Translations under genes and position numbers: made by a program | Notes under the pieces: generated by a model | What the model saw: the letters and a program-made list of their open reading frames with translations, nothing else | Told to the model about the DNA's origin: nothing | The model's database searches: none | DNA from: Limimaricola variabilis | Lineage (GTDB): Bacteria > Pseudomonadota > Alphaproteobacteria > Rhodobacterales > Rhodobacteraceae | Direction of reading: 5' to 3' | Length of the DNA: 64,000 nt | Assembly (NCBI RefSeq): GCF_014195545.1 | Contig: NZ_JACIBX010000009.1 | Coordinates: 1 to 64,000, forward strand | Shown here: positions 5,482 through 16,142 of the stretch, piece after piece | Layout: each line of letters begins with the position of its first letter | Position numbering within the stretch: the first letter of the stretch is position 1

Positions 5482-6360
5482 ATGACCGCAGCGATGACCG
5501 AGGTAAGCCGCCTCCTGCAGGAGGATTTCGAAGAGGTGGTCGACGCCTGGTTCGCCACGCAGAAGCGCGAGGGCGTGCGCCGGCCCGATCTGTTTTCCGA
5601 CCGCGAGAGCCGCCGACAGCTCTCGGATCTGCTGCGCGCCTTCGCCGATACGCTGGGGCGGATCGATCTGAGCCAGAGTGTCGACGTCGACGCAGAGGAG
5701 TGGTCGGACCTGCGCCTCGCGCTCTCCGAGATCACGCTGGTGCGCGCCGAGCGCGGTGTCGCGCCTTGGGAGATGACGACCTTCGTTCTGGCGCTCAAGC
5801 AGCCGGTTTTCGGCAAGCTGAACGAGCGGCTGCGCGACACGCCCGATCGGCTGTTGCAGGAGGCCGCCGATTTCGGGCGCATCGTCGATGCCTTCGCGAT
5901 GCATATCAACGAGCACTTCATCGCCGAGCGCGACGAGATCATCGAGCGTCAGCGCGCCGAGATGATGGAGCTGTCGACCCCGGTCGTGCAGCTGTGGGAG
6001 CGGGTGCTGACCATCCCGCTGATCGGCACGCTCGATTCGATGCGCGCCCAGGAAGTGATGGAAAACCTGCTCAACGCCATCGTCGAGCATCAGGCCGAAG
6101 TGGTGATCGTCGACATCACCGGCGTGCGGGTGGTGGATACCCAGGTCGCCCAGCACCTGCTGCGCACCGCCGCCGCGGTGCGGCTGATGGGTGCCGAGGC
6201 GATCATCTCGGGCATTTCGCCCAAAATCGCCCAGACCATGGTCGAGCTCGGCGTCGACGTGGGCGAGGTGACGACGCGGCCCTCGATCCGCGCGGCCTTG
6301 GCCGAGGCGTTCCGCAGGGTCGGCTTCGCCATCACCCGGGTCGAGGACACCCGTGCCTGA
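5482..6360 (+). CDS. rsbR: RsbR-like stressosome scaffold protein (N-terminal sensor + STAS)
   Basis: A 292-residue RsbR-type co-antagonist. Residues 1 to about 160 are a helical N-terminal domain of the RsbRD_N kind (WFATQKREGVRRPDLFSDRE ... INEHFIAERDEIIERQRAEM), the presumed sensory turret. After the linker (LSTPVVQLWERVLTIPLIGT) comes the STAS domain. The threonine positions expected to be phosphorylated by RsbT are kept: Thr220 in VVDTQVAQHL and Thr252 in AQTMVELGV. RsbR and RsbS build the stressosome core. The ATG at 5482 was chosen for the AGGA seven bases upstream; a longer frame starts earlier without support. First gene of an operon overlapping rsbS by eight bases. No haem or flavin motif can be read from the N-domain. 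Confidence 0.93.
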   Translation: MTAAMTEVSRLLQEDFEEVVDAWFATQKREGVRRPDLFSDRESRRQLSDLLRAFADTLGRIDLSQSVDVDAEEWSDLRLALSEITLVRAERGVAPWEMTTFVLALKQPVFGKLNERLRDTPDRLLQEAADFGRIVDAFAMHINEHFIAERDEIIERQRAEMMELSTPVVQLWERVLTIPLIGTLDSMRAQEVMENLLNAIVEHQAEVVIVDITGVRVVDTQVAQHLLRTAAAVRLMGAEAIISGISPKIAQTMVELGVDVGEVTTRPSIRAALAEAFRRVGFAITRVEDTRA

Positions 6361-6715
6361 GGCGGCCTCGATCTACAAGGTCGACAAGGTGCTGCTGGTC
6401 GCGATCCGCGACAACATCACCGACACCGACATCATCAACCTTCAGGAGGATCTGTCCGAGCGGATCGTCAGCGAAAAGGCGCGCGGTGTCGTGATCGACA
6501 TCGCGGCGCTGGAGATCGTCGACACTTTTGTCGGCCGCATCCTCGCGCAGCTCTCGGCGATATCGCGGCTGCTGGCGGCCGAGACCTACATCGTCGGCAT
6601 GCGTCCGGCGGTGGCGATGACGCTGGTCGAGCTGGGCATGGACCTGCCGGGCTCAAAGACCGCGCTGTCGCTCAGTCACGCGCTGCGCGCGCTGAAGGCC
6701 AAGGGGCTGGCGTGA
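6353..6715 (+). CDS. rsbS: RsbS-like single STAS domain stressosome protein
   Basis: A 120-residue stand-alone STAS protein with the RsbS pattern: VLLVAIRDNITDTDI, LQEDLSERIV, VVIDIAALEIVD, GMRPAVAMTLVELGMDL and LSHALRALKAKG. RsbS holds RsbT in the stressosome until phosphorylated. In Bacillus the acceptor is a serine in the IDSF motif (Ser59); here the equivalent is Thr58 (IVDTFVGRIL), a conservative change that keeps a hydroxyl. The gene starts with GTG inside the end of rsbR (eight-base overlap) and ends in GTGA with rsbT, so all three are translationally coupled. Confidence 0.93.
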   Translation: MPEAASIYKVDKVLLVAIRDNITDTDIINLQEDLSERIVSEKARGVVIDIAALEIVDTFVGRILAQLSAISRLLAAETYIVGMRPAVAMTLVELGMDLPGSKTALSLSHALRALKAKGLA

Positions 6716-7119
6716 GCGGCCCGCCGGCCGAGCCGGCGGCCCGCGTCGAGCTGCGCCAGGAGCGCGATGTGGCGGCGGCGCGGCTCGCCGTATCGCGGGT
6801 GATGGATGCGATGGGCGCGCGGGCTCTGCGCAAGACCCGTTTCGTCACCGCCGTGAGCGAGATCGCTCGCAACGCGCTCGACCATGGTGGCGGCGGGGTG
6901 ATCGAGGTCTGGCGGCTGGACCGGCCCGCGCGAATCATGATCCGCTGCCGCGACGAGGGACCCGGTATCGCCGATATCGATCAGGCGATGACCGACGGCT
7001 TCTCGACCGCGCGCAGCATGGGCAAGGGGCTGGGCGGAGCCAGACGACTGGTCGAGGCGTTCCGCATCGATAGCCGGCCCGGGGTCGGGACCACCGTCGA
7101 AATGGAGGCCAGACCATGA
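6712..7119 (+). CDS. rsbT: RsbT-like switch kinase (GHKL ATPase)
   Basis: A 135-residue single-domain GHKL serine/threonine kinase of the RsbT/RsbW group. N-box SEIARNALDHGGGG, G1 box DEGPGIADIDQAMTDGFST and G2 region GKGLGGARRLVEAF are all clear. In known stressosomes RsbT phosphorylates RsbR and RsbS, is released, and then activates a downstream output protein. Begins with GTG overlapping the rsbS stop by four bases and ends in ATGA with the next gene. Seen: domain and motifs. Inferred: its partners are the RsbR and RsbS encoded just upstream. Confidence 0.93.
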   Translation: MSGPPAEPAARVELRQERDVAAARLAVSRVMDAMGARALRKTRFVTAVSEIARNALDHGGGGVIEVWRLDRPARIMIRCRDEGPGIADIDQAMTDGFSTARSMGKGLGGARRLVEAFRIDSRPGVGTTVEMEARP

Positions 7120-8114
7120 GGCATGTCGTCGAAGTGAGCGAGCCCAGCGCCGTGGCCGAAGCCCGGCGGCTGGGGCGCAATCTGGCCGAGAACGTGGGCC
7201 TCGATGCCACCCGTACGGCCGCGCTGGCCATCGTCGTGACAGAAATGGCGACCAACCTCCTGCGGCATGCCAGGGGCGGACAGTTGATGCTGCTGGCGCA
7301 GCCTGTCGCGGGACCGCGCGTGGCGCTGGCGGCGATCGACCGCGGCCCCGGCATCCCCGATATCGAGCAGGCGCTCTCCGACGGGTTCTCGACCGGATCG
7401 AGCGCGGGGGGCGGCCTCGGTGCGATGAAGCGGCTGGCCGACAGCTTCGAGATCCAGTCGACGCCCGGGCAGGGGACCGTCACGGTCTGCGGCTTCGGCG
7501 CATCGCCGGTGCTGGCCGGGGTCGAGATCGGCGGTTTCCTGACGAACTACCCCGGTGACCGGGCCTGCGGCGATGCTTTGCATGCGCGCAATGTCGGCGG
7601 TCGGGTCGATCTCATCTCGATCGATGGGCTGGGCCATGGCGCCCGCGCGGAGGTCGCCGCCACCGAGACGCTCGACGGCTTTGCGGCGCTGAGGGGCGAC
7701 GATCCCGCGCGCCTTCTGGCCGAGCTGTCGGCCCGGCTTTCGGGCAGCCGAGGCTCTGTCGCCGCCCTGGCGCAGATCGAGGCTGCGGATGGCCGGCTCA
7801 GCCTTGCAGGTATCGGCAACATCTCGGCGCTGTTGGTGCGGCCCGGGGGGCGGATGCGGCGGTTGATCAGCCGCGAGGGCCGGCTCGGTGGAGCGGTGCG
7901 CACGCCGCCGATCGAAACCGAGACGATGACGCTGGGTGACGTGCTGATCCTGCACAGCGACGGGCTTTCGACGCTGCGCAGCCCGGCCGATCTGCCGGAG
8001 CTTGCAGGCATGAGCTGCGCGATGATCGCGGCGCAACTCATTCGAGACCGGGCGAAAGGGCGCGACGACTGCTGCGCGCTGGTTGCCCGGCTTGCCCCGG
8101 AGGAGGCGGCATGA
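7116..8114 (+). CDS. RsbT-like ATPase fused to SpoIIE/RsbX-type phosphatase
   Basis: A 332-residue two-domain protein. Residues 1 to about 125 are a second GHKL ATPase of RsbT/RsbW type (VTEMATNLLRHARGG, DRGPGIPDIEQALSDGFSTG, GGGLGAMKRLADSFEI). Residues about 135-330 are a PP2C/SpoIIE phosphatase like RsbX, with acidic metal-binding motifs PGDRACGDALH, ISIDGLGHGARAE and LILHSDGLSTL near the end. RsbX resets the stressosome by dephosphorylating RsbR and RsbS. Carrying a switch-kinase-like domain on the same chain is the notable feature; fusions of this kind are known in proteobacterial stressosome loci, but their mechanism is poorly understood. Overlaps both neighbours by ATGA. Confidence 0.88.
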   Translation: MRHVVEVSEPSAVAEARRLGRNLAENVGLDATRTAALAIVVTEMATNLLRHARGGQLMLLAQPVAGPRVALAAIDRGPGIPDIEQALSDGFSTGSSAGGGLGAMKRLADSFEIQSTPGQGTVTVCGFGASPVLAGVEIGGFLTNYPGDRACGDALHARNVGGRVDLISIDGLGHGARAEVAATETLDGFAALRGDDPARLLAELSARLSGSRGSVAALAQIEAADGRLSLAGIGNISALLVRPGGRMRRLISREGRLGGAVRTPPIETETMTLGDVLILHSDGLSTLRSPADLPELAGMSCAMIAAQLIRDRAKGRDDCCALVARLAPEEAA

Positions 8115-9277
8115 GGATCACGACGCTTAAGATCGAGGCCGATGACGACATCGTGCGCCTGCGCATGGTCGGTCAGGAGGTGGCGCGGCGCTGTGGCTTC
8201 GGCAAGTTTGCCGAGACCCGCATCGTCACCGCGCTGCTCGAGCTGGGCAGGAACATCGTCCAGCATGGCGGTGGCGGCCGGATGATCCTGACGCTCGAGC
8301 CGCGCGACGCCGGCCTCGACCTCGTGGCCGAGGCGATCGACCATGGTCCGGGCATCTCCGATCTCGACGCCCGGCTCTCGGCCGCTGGGCCGCTGCCGGG
8401 CACCAATGGCGGACCCGCTGCGGGCCTTGGCCTCGGACTGCGCGGTGTCAGGCGGATCGCTGACCGGATGGATGTGGATACCGGCCCGGAAGGGACTCGG
8501 ATCCGGGTGATCTTCGCCACCTCGTGCGGGGCAGGTGAGGCGGCCGCGCTGGGCAGCGAGATCGGCGAGGCGCTGGCGGTGCTGCGACGGGCCGACCCGG
8601 CCGCGATGCTCGCCCAGCAGAACCGTGATCTGCTCGATGCGCTCGAGGAGCGCGACCTGCTGATGGCCGAGGTGCACCATCGCACCAAGAACAACCTCGC
8701 CCTCGTGACCGGGTTGATGCGGTTGTCGCGCAGCGCGGCCAAGACCGAAGAAACTCGCGAGGTGCTGCGCGACCTCGAACTGCGGGTGAAGGCGATCACG
8801 GCGCTGCACGACCGGTTGCAGCGCGCCGCCGGAGCGGACAGCACGCCGCTGCTGCCGTTGTTGCGCGACGTGGCGGAGCAGACGCGGCAAGCCTTCTCGA
8901 CGCCGGATCAGGAGGTCGCGGTCGCAGTAACGGGTGAGGCCCTGAGCCTGTCGGGCAATGCCGCGACCGATCTTGCGCTGGCGGCCGGCGAGCTGATGAC
9001 CAACGCCTGCAAGCATGCCTTTGCCGGTCGCGACAAGGGCCGGCTGCACGTGGCGCTGGCGCGGGAGGAGGGGATGCTCAAGCTCACCGTCGCGGATGAC
9101 GGATGCGGTCTGGCACCGGGGATGGAGCGTCCCGAACGCTCGGACTCGTTGGGCTGGCGGATGATTCGCACCATGGTTCAGAAGCATGGCGGCTTCGTGC
9201 GCACCTCTGGCGGCTCGACCGGCCTGACGGTGGAGCTGGGCTTTGGCGAGGCGCAGTTGGGCCTGCGCGAGGACTGA
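8111..9277 (+). CDS. hybrid RsbT-like / HisKA_2 sensor histidine kinase
   Basis: A 388-residue kinase. Residues 1 to about 140 are a third RsbT-like GHKL domain (LLELGRNIVQHGGGGR, DHGPGISDLDARLS, GLGLGLRGVRRIADRM). After a coiled linker (MLAQQNRDLLDALEERDLLM) comes a HisKA_2 dimerisation motif, EVHHRTKNNLALVTGLMRLS, with His190 as the likely phospho-acceptor. The second ATPase domain has N-box AAGELMTNACKHAF and G-box VADDGCGLAPG. There are no membrane segments, PAS or GAF domains, so the N-terminal ATPase domain is the only visible input. HWE/HisKA_2 kinases in alphaproteobacteria often feed response regulators of the PhyR type; none is encoded nearby. Last gene of the operon, followed by a terminator. 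Confidence 0.88.
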   Translation: MRITTLKIEADDDIVRLRMVGQEVARRCGFGKFAETRIVTALLELGRNIVQHGGGGRMILTLEPRDAGLDLVAEAIDHGPGISDLDARLSAAGPLPGTNGGPAAGLGLGLRGVRRIADRMDVDTGPEGTRIRVIFATSCGAGEAAALGSEIGEALAVLRRADPAAMLAQQNRDLLDALEERDLLMAEVHHRTKNNLALVTGLMRLSRSAAKTEETREVLRDLELRVKAITALHDRLQRAAGADSTPLLPLLRDVAEQTRQAFSTPDQEVAVAVTGEALSLSGNAATDLALAAGELMTNACKHAFAGRDKGRLHVALAREEGMLKLTVADDGCGLAPGMERPERSDSLGWRMIRTMVQKHGGFVRTSGGSTGLTVELGFGEAQLGLRED

Positions 9278-9796: not shown

Positions 9797-10828
9797 TCAC
9801 TCCACCAAAGGCGAAGACACTGATCCTGCCTCGATCACCTCGAAATCACCCAGCCGCTGCAGATCCGCGAGCGGCTGCCCCTCGATCGCGCCGATCAGCC
9901 CTTGGGCCAGCGGCTCCCAGCTGAGCGACAGCGCCGAGCGGGTGCCCGAACAGGGCGGCAGCGCCAGCAGGTCCTCGCCCGGAAGCGCGTCGTCATGCGC
10001 CACTACCGAGACATCATGCGGCACCCGCAGGCCGAGCATCGCGAGCGCATTGTGGATGCCCTTGGCGATCAGCATGTTGCCGGCAATGAGCGCGCTCGGG
10101 CGGGGGCCATCGCTGGACATCATTCTCAACGTGGCAAGGGCGCCGTGGCTTTCGGTCATCTGGCCGTGTTCGTGGAGGGCAGGGTCGGCGGGCAGCCCGG
10201 CCGCCTCCAGCGCCCGCTCCCAACCGAGGCGGCGATGATCGGCATAGCACATCTCGGCAAGCCCGTTGATGAAGCCGATCTTGCGATGACCGGCGCGCAG
10301 CAGCATCTCCGTCAGCGTCCTGCCGACCGCCAGGTTGTCGATGTCGTAATAGGGATAGTCGGGCGCGTCGCTGCCACGACCATGCATCACCAGCGGCACG
10401 CCCCGCCCCTGCAGATAGGTCACGCGGCGGTCGTCCCGTTCCGGCTCGATCAGCACGAAGCCGTCGAGCGACCCGCCATCGATCAGCCTGCGATGTACCG
10501 CCACCACGTCCTCGCCCTCTTCGGCGGCGTGCAGCACGAACAGTCGGCCGCGCCGCGAGAAGGCCCCCGACAGCCCCCGCACCATCTCCACGAAGAGGCT
10601 GTCGCGCGGTGTCCGGTCGAGCGGCGGCAGCACCAGTCCGACGATGTGGGAGCGACCGGAAGCCAGCTTGCGCGCTGAAAGATTCGGGCTGTAGTTCAGG
10701 GCCTTAGCTGCTTTTCTCACCCGGATCTTGGTTTCGGCGCTGACATCGGCGTGGTCGTTCAACGCACGGCTCACCTGCGTGACCGACAGCCCTGTGCTGG
10801 CCGCGATGTCCTTGAGTGTCGCCGACAT
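9797..10828 (-). CDS. LacI-family transcriptional repressor
   Basis: A 343-residue regulator. The N-terminal HTH is TLKDIAASTGLSVTQVSRAL followed by the hinge SPNLSARKLASGRS; the periplasmic-binding-like sugar domain fills residues about 60-340 (VGLVLPPLDRTPRD, GRTLTEMLLRAGHRKIGFIN, VSVVAHDD). It is divergent from an alpha-glucosidase gene with 99 bases between the starts, and a LacI-type palindrome lies in that gap, so the simplest reading is an alpha-glucoside-responsive repressor like AglR of rhizobia and rhodobacters. The inducer is inferred from the neighbour only. Confidence 0.9.
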   Translation of the reverse strand: MSATLKDIAASTGLSVTQVSRALNDHADVSAETKIRVRKAAKALNYSPNLSARKLASGRSHIVGLVLPPLDRTPRDSLFVEMVRGLSGAFSRRGRLFVLHAAEEGEDVVAVHRRLIDGGSLDGFVLIEPERDDRRVTYLQGRGVPLVMHGRGSDAPDYPYYDIDNLAVGRTLTEMLLRAGHRKIGFINGLAEMCYADHRRLGWERALEAAGLPADPALHEHGQMTESHGALATLRMMSSDGPRPSALIAGNMLIAKGIHNALAMLGLRVPHDVSVVAHDDALPGEDLLALPPCSGTRSALSLSWEPLAQGLIGAIEGQPLADLQRLGDFEVIEAGSVSSPLVE

Positions 10829-12625: not shown

Positions 12626-14125
12626 ATGAGACCCAAGGAGTATGCCCGTACCGGGGTGCCAGGGCTCGACGATGTTCTGGCGGGCGGGCTGACCCGCCGC
12701 CATGTCTTCTTGGTCGAGGGCGCGCCCGGCACCGGCAAGACCACCACCGCGATGCGCTTTCTCTTGGAAGGCGCCGAGCGCGGCGAGACCTGTCTCTACG
12801 TGACCTTGTCGGAGACCGAGGAAGAGCTGCGCGACAGCGCCGCCTCGCATGGCTGGACCTTGGACGAACGCGTTTCCGTCTTCGAGGTCGTCCCCGCCGA
12901 AAGCCTGCTCGATGCAGATCAGCAGCAAAGCCTGCTCTATTCCTCTGATCTGGAGCTGGGCGAGGCGACCCGCCAGATCTTCGACGCCTTCGAGCGGATC
13001 CGCCCCCAGCGGGTGGTGATCGACAGCCTCTCGGAGATCCGGCTGCTGGCACAGGGCTCTCTGCGCTACCGCCGCCAGATCCTTGCCATGAAGCACTACT
13101 TCGCGCGGCAGGACGCCACCGTGCTGATGCTCGACGATCTCACCGCCGAGGCGCATGACCGCACCGTGCACAGCGTCGTGCACGGGGTGATCCAGCTCGA
13201 AGAGCTGGCGCCAGAATACGGGGCCGAGCGGCGTCGCCTCCGGGTCACCAAGTATCGGGGCCAGCGCTACCGCGGCGGCTACCACGACTTCGCCATCAAG
13301 ACCGGCGGCATCGAGGTGTTCCCGCGCCTCGTGGCGCTCGAGCACCGCACCGATTTCGACCGCAGCCCGCGCGGCAGCGGCATCCCCGAGCTCGACAAGC
13401 TGCTCGGCGGTGGCGTCGAGCAGGGGTCGAGCACGCTTGTGCTGGGACCCTCGGGCACCGGCAAGAGCCTGCTCGCGCTGCAGTTCGCGCTGGCCGCGAT
13501 CGAGCGGGGCGAGCGTGCCGCGTTCTTTGTCTTCGACGAGGAGCTGAGCCAGCTCGAGGCGCGATTGGTCAAGATGGGCATCGACCTGCCGTCGCTGCGC
13601 GAAAGCGGCGCCTTGCTGGTCGAGCAGATTGACGCCGCGGAGATGTCGCCCGGCGAGTTCTCGCAGAAGGTCCGCGACTGCGTGGCGACGCTGGGCGTGC
13701 GCACCGTAGTGATCGATAGCATGAATGGCTACCAGGCCGCGATGCCGCAGGAGAACGCGCTGATCCTGCACATCCATGAGCTCCTGCAGTTCCTCAATCG
13801 GCAGGGTGCCTCGACCTTCCTGACCGTGGCGCAGCACGGGCTGGTGGGCGACATGCGGTCGCCACTCGATCTGACCTACCTGGCCGATACCGTCGTGCTG
13901 CTGCGCTATTTCGAGGCGATGGGTCAGGTCCGCCGCGCGGTCTCGATCATCAAGAAGCGCACCGGCGCGCATGAGGACACCATCCGCGAATACCGGATCG
14001 GCGGCGAAGGGCTTGAGCTCGGCGCACCGCTGCGTGGCTTCCAGGGCGTGTTGCGCGGCGTGCCGGACTTCATTGGCTCCGCCGGGCCGCTGATGGGGAT
14101 GGATGCCGACAATGCCGGGAGCTGA
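12626..14125 (+). CDS. KaiC-like double RecA-fold ATPase
   Basis: A 499-residue tandem KaiC-domain protein. CI domain Walker A is GAPGTGKTT (residues 32-39), CII Walker A is GPSGTGKSL (274-281), with Walker B-like VVIDSLSEI and VVIDSMNGY. In cyanobacterial KaiC the CII autophosphorylation pair is Ser431-Thr432; the aligned stretch here is DLTYLADTVVLLRYFE, giving Thr-Tyr, as in the non-cyanobacterial KaiC2-type group. There is no kaiA or kaiB nearby. The following kinase gene overlaps it by 23 bases, so the two are translationally linked. Proteobacterial KaiC-like proteins are tied to stress or light responses in only a few cases; a clock function should not be assumed. Confidence 0.9.
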   Translation: MRPKEYARTGVPGLDDVLAGGLTRRHVFLVEGAPGTGKTTTAMRFLLEGAERGETCLYVTLSETEEELRDSAASHGWTLDERVSVFEVVPAESLLDADQQQSLLYSSDLELGEATRQIFDAFERIRPQRVVIDSLSEIRLLAQGSLRYRRQILAMKHYFARQDATVLMLDDLTAEAHDRTVHSVVHGVIQLEELAPEYGAERRRLRVTKYRGQRYRGGYHDFAIKTGGIEVFPRLVALEHRTDFDRSPRGSGIPELDKLLGGGVEQGSSTLVLGPSGTGKSLLALQFALAAIERGERAAFFVFDEELSQLEARLVKMGIDLPSLRESGALLVEQIDAAEMSPGEFSQKVRDCVATLGVRTVVIDSMNGYQAAMPQENALILHIHELLQFLNRQGASTFLTVAQHGLVGDMRSPLDLTYLADTVVLLRYFEAMGQVRRAVSIIKKRTGAHEDTIREYRIGGEGLELGAPLRGFQGVLRGVPDFIGSAGPLMGMDADNAGS

Positions 14126-16142
14126 ACCGGCACGCGCGCTGATCCTCGCGCCCGGCGGGCGGGACGCGCGGCTCGCATCGGCATTGCTCGCGGAAATCGG
14201 CCAGCCTTCGATCATCTGCGACGACATGCCCTCCTTCGTTACGGCGCTGGGCGAGGGCACGGCCTTCTGCCTGCTGACCGAGGAGACGGTCCAGCATGCC
14301 GATCTCGCCGCTCTCGCGACAGCGGTCGAGGCTCAGCCAAGCTGGTCGGCGCTGCCTTTCATCATCCTGACCCGGCATGGCGGTGGGCCCGAGCGTAACC
14401 CGGAGGCGGCGCGGCTCTCCGAAATCCTGGGCAACGTCACCTTCCTCGAACGGCCCTTCCACGCCACCACCTTTGCAAGTGTCGCGCGCAGCGCCCTGCG
14501 CGGCCGCGAGCGGCAGTTCGAGGCACGCGCCGCGGTCGAGCAGCTCAATCGCAGCGACGAGATGTTGCGTACCGCGCTAACGGCCGGGCGGCTCGGAGCA
14601 TGGAAGCTGCGGCCCTCGACCGGTGAACTGGTCACCTCGCCGCTATTGCGGGCGATCTTCGGCCGGCAAGAGGCCGAGGGGCTGACCTATGAGGAATTCA
14701 TCGCCGGCCTGCATCCCGACGATGTCGAAAGGGTAAGCGCCACCATCGCCAATGCGGTCCGCGACGGGACCGAGTATCGCGCCCAGTTCCGAGTTGTCTG
14801 GCCCGATGGCAGCCAGCGCTGGGCCGAGGCGGTGGCGCGGACCGAGCGCGAGCCTGACGGCGAAATCCAGCTCGTTGGCGTGACCTCCGACATCACCGAC
14901 CGCAAGCGGGCCGAGGCCGACCAGCGCGAACAGACCGAGGAACTGGAACGGCGCGTGGCCCAGCGCACCGCCGAGCTGGAAAGCGCACATGCGCGCGTGC
15001 TCGAGGAAATCCGCCAGCGCGAACGCACCGAGGGCCAGCTGCTGCAAAGCCAGAAGATGGAAGCGATCGGGCAGCTTACCGGCGGCGTGGCGCATGACTT
15101 CAACAACCTGCTGATGGCGGTGCTGAGCAATCTCGATCTGTTATCGCGCCATGTCGCGGGTGATGCGCGCGCCGCCAGGCTGATCGACGGCGCGATCCAA
15201 GGGGCGCAACGCGGTGCCGCGCTGACCCAGCGCCTGCTCGCCTTCGCGCGCAAGCAGGAGCTGGAGGTCGCGCCGCGCGACCTAGCCGGGCTCGTGCGCG
15301 AGTCCGAGGAGCTGCTGCGCCGATCGCTGGGAGACGGGATCGAGCTGCAGATTTCGCTGCCCGAGGGTCTGCCGGCGGCGCAGGTCGACGGTCCCCAGTT
15401 CGACCTCGCGCTGCTGAACCTCGTGGTCAACGCGCGCGACGCGATGCCGGGCGGCGGCCGGATCGCCATTTCGCTCGAAGAAGCTGCGGCCGCGAATGCG
15501 CCCGACCTCGCGGATGGCCGGTACCTGCGGCTGATCGTCGGCGACACCGGCATCGGCATGGACGCCGCGACGCTCGATCAGGCGACGCAGCCCTTCTTCT
15601 CGACCAAGGAGCTCGGCAAGGGCACCGGCTTGGGCCTGTCTATGATCCATGGGCTGGCGCAGCAGCTGGGCGGCGCGCTGCGGCTGTCGAGCCGGGTCGG
15701 AGAAGGCACCCGGGCCGAGCTATGGCTTCCGGTGGCGACGGGCGTGGCCATGGCGGCGATCGAAGCGCCGGCCAGCAGCACGACGCCGGGCGCGCCACTG
15801 CGGATCCTGTTCGTCGACGACGACGCGCTGATCGCGATGAGCAGCGTGGAGCTACTGGAGGATCTGGGTCACGAGGTGACCGAGGCTAATTCGGCGGCGC
15901 AGGCGCTGGGCCTGCTCGAAGGTGGGGCGGAAATCGATCTGCTGATCACCGATTTCTCGATGCCCCGGATGAACGGCGGCGAGCTGGCGCGCCGGGCCCG
16001 CGCTTTGCGGCCCGATCTGCCGGTGCTGCTCGCCACCGGCTATGCCGAGCTGCCCGAGGGCGACGCGCTCGATCTGCCGCGCCTCGCCAAGCCCTACATG
16101 CAGCGACAGCTCTCAGACGCGATCGCCCGGCTCGGTCTCTGA
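14103..16142 (+). CDS. PAS hybrid sensor histidine kinase with receiver domain
   Basis: A 679-residue cytoplasmic hybrid kinase. Residues 1 to about 130 form a receiver-like domain without an obvious phospho-Asp motif. A PAS domain (about 155-270: GAWKLRPSTGELVTSPLLRA ... ITDRKRAE) and a coiled coil (ELERRVAQRTAELESAHARV) lead to HisKA with His331 (GGVAHDFNNLL). HATPase boxes follow: NLVVNARDAMPGG, GDTGIGM, GKGTGLGLSM. A C-terminal receiver carries Asp617 (LLITDFSMPRMNG). It is coupled to the KaiC-like gene; such pairs recur in alphaproteobacteria, so the KaiC protein is a likely partner. ATGs at 14103 and 14112 are both possible starts. No haem or flavin-binding signature stands out in the PAS domain. 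Confidence 0.9.
   Translation: MPTMPGAEPARALILAPGGRDARLASALLAEIGQPSIICDDMPSFVTALGEGTAFCLLTEETVQHADLAALATAVEAQPSWSALPFIILTRHGGGPERNPEAARLSEILGNVTFLERPFHATTFASVARSALRGRERQFEARAAVEQLNRSDEMLRTALTAGRLGAWKLRPSTGELVTSPLLRAIFGRQEAEGLTYEEFIAGLHPDDVERVSATIANAVRDGTEYRAQFRVVWPDGSQRWAEAVARTEREPDGEIQLVGVTSDITDRKRAEADQREQTEELERRVAQRTAELESAHARVLEEIRQRERTEGQLLQSQKMEAIGQLTGGVAHDFNNLLMAVLSNLDLLSRHVAGDARAARLIDGAIQGAQRGAALTQRLLAFARKQELEVAPRDLAGLVRESEELLRRSLGDGIELQISLPEGLPAAQVDGPQFDLALLNLVVNARDAMPGGGRIAISLEEAAAANAPDLADGRYLRLIVGDTGIGMDAATLDQATQPFFSTKELGKGTGLGLSMIHGLAQQLGGALRLSSRVGEGTRAELWLPVATGVAMAAIEAPASSTTPGAPLRILFVDDDALIAMSSVELLEDLGHEVTEANSAAQALGLLEGGAEIDLLITDFSMPRMNGGELARRARALRPDLPVLLATGYAELPEGDALDLPRLAKPYMQRQLSDAIARLGL

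Follow-up and report, generated by a model that had tools for sequence, protein, structure and literature searches.

The 64,000-nucleotide window analyzed here (positions 1 to 64,000 of contig NZ_JACIBX010000009.1 of Limimaricola variabilis) carries, at positions 5482–9277 of the plus strand, a five-gene operon composed of rsbR, rsbS and rsbT (RST) genes and of two further genes, TX and TK, in which an RsbT-like domain is fused with a phosphatase and with a histidine kinase, respectively. This layout is a conserved roseobacter operon, plasmid-borne in some genera, with TK as its last conserved gene. The operon products are predicted members of the stressosome family, and TK is probably the output of the module. 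In our assessment, the proposition that the operon encodes a minimal stressosome with a histidine kinase output wired to PhyR-NepR-sigmaEcfG is evenly balanced. A wider reading, to which we give somewhat less credence, is that an RsbT-derived docking domain exchanges histidine kinases, and that alphaproteobacterial HisKA_2 kinases carried on it, probably twice, join the stressosome directly to PhyR-NepR-sigmaEcfG.

The output is known for only a minority of Gram-negative stressosomes. If the proposed link were true, a scaffold-released histidine kinase acting on PhyR would place a sensor hub for the alphaproteobacterial general stress response in the cytoplasm, which would explain how a stressosome functions without SigB, and the two best-known bacterial designs of the general stress response would meet in one pathway. 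Among the matches listed in a literature search of open-licence papers, the available excerpts contained no stressosome–PhyR link.

Anatomy of the operon

The genes, domains, motifs and conserved order of the operon are firm at the sequence level. A preliminary description of this DNA had recognized five genes overlapping by four to eight bases, and the frames, coordinates and Pfam domains agree with it: all five frames are open, rsbR and rsbS overlap by 8 bp, and the rsbS/rsbT, rsbT/TX and TX/TK overlaps are of 4 bp each. The first gene (5482–6360, plus strand, as are the remaining four) encodes an RsbR-type co-antagonist with RsbRD_N (64.2 bits) and C-terminal STAS (55.2 bits) domains. It is followed by genes for an RsbS-type STAS antagonist (6353–6715; STAS, 40.1 bits) and an RsbT-type GHKL switch kinase (6712–7119; HATPase_c, 45.6 bits) that has the N, G1 and G2 boxes. 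TX (7116–8114) combines an RsbT-like GHKL domain (HATPase_c_2, 54.1 bits) with a SpoIIE/PP2C phosphatase (SpoIIE, 52.5 bits), and its Pfam matches, motifs and position in the tree suggest a tethered reset phosphatase of the RsbX-like type. TK (8111–9277) comprises an RsbT-like GHKL adaptor (approximately residues 1–135), a long helix, HisKA_2 and a C-terminal ATPase, and is the predicted output kinase. The Pfam matches of all five proteins exceed the curated cut-offs. The earlier view, in which a PP2C phosphatase and an uncommon fusion kinase accompany an RST module, was right.

RsbR and RsbS matched solved RsbR/RsbS chains (7o0i_B at 3.6e-37 and 2vy9_A at 1e-23, respectively). Both proteins also match chains of the entries 7o0i, 6qcm and 7b0u, which contain RsbR/RsbS in multiple copies and which we take to be stressosome particles. 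The phospho-sites named in the preliminary description, i.e., Thr220 and Thr252 of RsbR (the expected targets of RsbT) and Thr58 of RsbS (motif IVDTF), were found in the alignments. Both RsbR threonines are unchanged across a six-row Limimaricola alignment, and the VDT and AQT motifs are kept at 28/28 loci. Thr58 of RsbS aligns with Ser of the solved chains 2vy9 and 6qcm, and this phospho-acceptor position (window 6515–6529) is occupied by Thr at 20 of the 28 loci (19 roseobacter loci and L070) and by Ser at the other eight. It is very unlikely that no stressosome is formed and that the proteins merely switch partners as a small set, with no large particle, as RsbR and RsbS match multi-copy chains and retain their phospho-sites. 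The structure model of RsbR was of low confidence (mean predicted local distance difference test, pLDDT, of 56.4) and was left unused; the sensor assignment is that of the Pfam RsbRD_N match only.

No sigma-factor, anti-sigma, GGDEF or receiver genes were seen between 4219 and 9277 in the list of open reading frames and the domain scans, in agreement with the earlier statement that the operon lacks a sigma factor, an anti-sigma factor, a diguanylate cyclase and a response regulator. The accompanying remark that the output is not obvious was right in that the operon holds no sigma-factor or cyclic di-GMP output, and overstated in that its fifth gene encodes an output-type HisKA_2 kinase. A promoter and terminator scan of the operon gave no usable site. 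ARAGORN placed a tRNA-Pro at 7710–7795, inside the TX frame, which is most likely a false positive within a conserved protein gene.

The TK kinase and its RsbT-like domain

TK was matched by HATPase_c_2 (82.8 bits, in two stretches), HisKA_2 (56.4 bits; cut-off 22.3) and HWE_HK (33.1 bits), and no PAS or LOV domain was detected in it by Pfam; in the predicted domain layout, the RsbT-like domain occupies the usual sensor position. The structure model, made with seven close sequences and reaching a mean pLDDT of 75.9, had as its best structural match the HWE-type kinase domain of EL346 (4r39). The phospho-acceptor motif EVHHRTKNNL is located at residues 187–196.

A tree built from 54 GHKL domains placed the N-terminal domains of TK in one clade (98/98; 98% of bootstraps), separate from RsbT and from the N-terminal domains of TX. 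Six members of this clade come from other lineages, three of them with a classical HisKA kinase. The clade persisted when the Deinococcus MP1 module was added (91/89; 94% of bootstraps), in a tree from which the L076 TK dropped out. Neither tree grouped RsbT into a single clade (4% and 0% of bootstraps, respectively). In the tree of kinase domains (constructed without L108, L069, L076, L020, L050, L104 and L105), the roseobacter TK proteins formed one clade (17 rows, 100/100). A single origin of the HisKA_2 fusion is unsupported by that tree, and a single clade is seen for the N-terminal adaptor only. Since the N-terminal domain forms one clade while the kinase domains differ by lineage, the simplest reading is that the former may be a conserved docking adaptor with exchangeable histidine kinases.

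The N, G1 and G2 boxes of both TK ATPase domains are kept in nearly all rows printed, and LovK, which belongs to the same family of kinases, holds back the Caulobacter response (PMC5964349). Both facts would fit TK acting mainly as a phosphatase, sink or brake on PhyR, or an RsbT-like domain that is an active Ser/Thr kinase tuned by the histidine kinase part. We consider these roles improbable, as all 25 HisKA_2 rows retain the phospho-acceptor motif E-x-[HY]-H-R, and the variation of the kinase part by lineage, with the adaptor being one clade, suits an effector role for the kinase part.

Distribution and conservation of the operon

The closest relatives of the source strain are Limimaricola. 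TK was found in 8/8 Limimaricola genomes (one copy being split across two contigs) and not in 93 other relatives (E 1e-30). Of 394 family genomes, sampled so as to be spread out, ten encode TK (E 1e-40), all ten with the order R-S-T-TX-TK, and RsbS of at least 60% identity occurs in exactly these ten; two further genomes, G024 and G613, have a distant RsbS and no TK match. Moreover, TK matches covering at least 80% of its length came from 60 plasmid records, and the organism counts of the plasmid search were Phaeobacter 58, Alloyangia 1 and Salipiger 1, with 14 others giving partial matches. The five-gene order was present at 4/4 plasmid loci opened, with flanks varying among the three genera. 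The same order in the family genomes and at the plasmid loci indicates that the operon is more than chance, and chance or mis-annotation was ruled out by the conserved order and motifs. Rather than being peculiar to this genome, the layout is that of a recurrent roseobacter operon.

Among the 21 loci listed, no common gene comes after TK, as far as mechanical gene calls, some of them plainly spurious, allow. Pairwise distances of TK track those of R, S, T and TX (r 0.935–0.968 versus 0.385 as the best of 1000 permutations), at 23 of the 28 loci (i.e., without L108, L069, L076, L023 and L050) and with a contribution of shared ancestry as well. This argues that TK belongs to the module and that the five genes travel together.

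Proposed link with the PhyR-NepR system

HWE/HisKA2 kinases are known PhyR activators in Alphaproteobacteria, and RT-HK of Rubellimicrobium performs phosphotransfer to PhyR in vitro (PMC12148442). In 5/5 genomes of g314, a genus of another order, rsbR is preceded on the same strand by phyR at a distance of 15–16 bp (measured taking the first start codon), and the operon PhyR of one of them, G408, scored 309 bits to NF006623 (cut-off 240). In the family sample, NepR was detected in 10/10 TK genomes versus 173/384 others (one-sided Fisher test, 4e-4). It was also found in 16/16 roseobacter TK genomes, in 21/22 fusion genomes, and in 5/5 genomes of g314, where it is barely above the cut-off.

Full-length PhyR is encoded by 22/22 genomes with the HisKA_2 fusion versus 4/9 RST genomes without it (p 0.0007 by genome, 0.008 by genus), or versus 4/8 (p 0.003 and 0.018, respectively) after removal of G024, whose contig stops after RsbT, hence its output gene was not seen; the Fisher tests ignore phylogeny, the samples are small, and the PhyR comparison was made post hoc to the linkage. 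The class set for this comparison was drawn from 14 genomes with RsbS, to which G024 and G613 were added; G238 and G265, whose contigs end 0.6 and 0.9 kb past TX, and G156, with a PAS/HisKA hybrid output, stood outside it. In the genome of the window, phyR, nepR, an inferred EcfG-like sigma gene and a HisKA_2 kinase gene are located together on contig C23. Because phyR is linked to the module in another order and PhyR/NepR co-occur with it, this system is a candidate output for the operon. It is worth mentioning that the Phaeobacter plasmid operon and the phyR-containing operon of g314 allow direct testing of this assumption.

Besides the statistical limits given above, several observations weigh against the link. 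No phyR was found in the fetched flanks of the 19 roseobacter loci or L070, it is unlinked to the operon in G155, and in the genome of the window it is on a different contig from the operon. Each of the five g314 genomes encodes two further full-length PhyRs, which refutes the idea that the operon PhyR is the sole one of this genus. In G155, where the fusion and a PhyR are both present, no NepR was detected. In G334 (L076:6083–9207), a gene for an RsbT-like/HisKA hybrid kinase is followed, with a 4-base overlap, by one for a receiver-HisKA_2 kinase, and this genome (89% complete) gave no PhyR match, so that PhyR does not necessarily accompany a HisKA_2 kinase encoded within an RST operon. Among 16 HisKA_2 matches in the genome of the window, one adjoins the phyR/nepR locus on C23, so PhyR already has a neighbour kinase. 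TK scored 82.9 bits to the PhyK equivalog NF051872 (cut-off 750), in the kinase part only. Finally, the kinase domains of roseobacter TK and of the g314/G155 TK were joined in 0% of 200 bootstraps, in a tree with many long branches, of which the strongly supported ones alone are compatible with one origin. The phyR-linked kinase of g314 is therefore probably a fusion separate from the roseobacter TK.

The promoters point in the same direction: no EcfG-type promoter was found within 350 bp upstream of the operon at any of 25 loci, with either a strict or a looser consensus. The consensus used in the scan was GGAAC-N15-18-CGTT, which we assume to be that of EcfG promoters. As a control, a match was obtained upstream of phyR of the window's genome and none upstream of its nepR. 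Autoregulation of the operon by EcfG was rejected, since no promoter match precedes it at the 25 loci. The phyR match itself (L067, upstream of a minus-strand gene starting near 5655) is as expected for autoregulation of that gene.

The main rival to PhyR is a single-domain receiver serving as the first phosphate acceptor, a possibility that we regard as rather unlikely, though a serious one. In Caulobacter, at least six kinases feed MrrA, and PhyK works as a phosphotransferase (PMC5964349). On a Salipiger plasmid, a gene for a single-domain response regulator (L109:3454–3822) lies 0.5 kb upstream of rsbR, a further point to be set against direct action on PhyR, and in the window's genome a short receiver match (G000:C1:491864–492220) adjoins a HisKA_2 kinase at C1:491269. 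Nevertheless, a lone short gene matching that receiver was present in the fetched flanks of just 1/25 HisKA_2-type loci, whereas phyR stands beside 5/5 g314 loci.

Another conceivable target lies in the neighborhood of the operon. At 12626–16142, 3.3 kb downstream and on the same strand, the window encodes a KaiC-like double ATPase followed by a PAS/HisKA/REC hybrid kinase (23-base overlap), and a hybrid kinase with a matching receiver is found at a like distance in 4/6 other Limimaricola loci. That the output goes to this pair seems most improbable: an opposite-strand gene (9797–10828) separates it from the operon, and the annotation of the four plasmid loci from other genera shows no KaiC-like or hybrid kinase genes downstream. 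On the other side of the operon, close to the contig start, a phage-integrase-type tyrosine recombinase is encoded at 304–1608.

Proposed mechanism

With PhyR retained as the preferred target, the following model may be proposed, in which scaffold assembly, docking of TK, and phosphotransfer with its direction are what we infer. RsbR and RsbS would make up a STAS scaffold serving three RsbT-type GHKL domains, i.e., the free switch kinase RsbT, the phosphatase tether in TX, and the kinase tether in TK. Without stress, TK would be kept on the scaffold via its RsbT-like domain. After sensing of stress by the N-terminal domain of RsbR, RsbT would phosphorylate Thr220/Thr252 of RsbR and Thr58 of RsbS, and TK, then released or re-oriented, would autophosphorylate. 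Its phosphate would pass to a response regulator whose gene lies outside the operon. This regulator is most likely PhyR, which would pull NepR from sigmaEcfG and turn on the general stress response. Removal of the scaffold phosphates by TX would reset the system.

Comparison with known systems

RSTX modules of Gram-negative bacteria are described in PMC9237108, where HisKA/REC outputs are listed as one type. RSTX modules with histidine-kinase/receiver outputs, the side on which novelty had been suggested earlier, are thus a published type, and a figure of that paper may draw a like fusion. The Vibrio vulnificus-type RsbRSTX of the same source resembles the operon studied here in R, S, T and the adjoining downstream PP2C phosphatase, followed by a signalling gene. 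However, the phosphatase of the modules described there is a single-domain protein, and their outputs contain RsbU_N or mostly no such domain. Here, no single-domain RsbX follows RsbT, the phosphatase being fused to an RsbT-like domain, and the kinase, which carries an RsbT-like domain as well, is of the HisKA_2 type with no receiver encoded. The operon shares with the sigmaB operon of Bacillus subtilis, also treated in that source, the RST upstream sensing unit and a reset phosphatase and, unlike it, has no RsbU, RsbV, RsbW and SigB genes.

Other RST modules found in this study carry diverse outputs, i.e., RsbU_N/HisKA in G306 and G415 (with a below-cut-off RsbU_N match in G613), GGDEF-EAL in G244, PAS/HisKA in G156, and HisKA in G242 and G343. 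Close in arrangement are RSTX modules with RsbT-like/HisKA hybrid kinases of Deinococcus radiodurans plasmid MP1 (28062–29795), a Sphingomonas aliaeris plasmid, G120 and G334, which share the gene order, the RsbT-like/SpoIIE phosphatase and the adaptor clade, but encode classical HisKA kinases with receiver domains instead of HisKA_2. On MP1 (L157:2220–8024), the order R-S-T-TX-TK, with a HisKA hybrid kinase, is followed by a second receiver-kinase gene. With the HWE/HisKA2 stress kinases PhyK, LOV-HK and RT-HK, TK has in common the HisKA_2 and ATPase core, and it differs from them in bearing an RsbT-like GHKL domain in place of a sensor.

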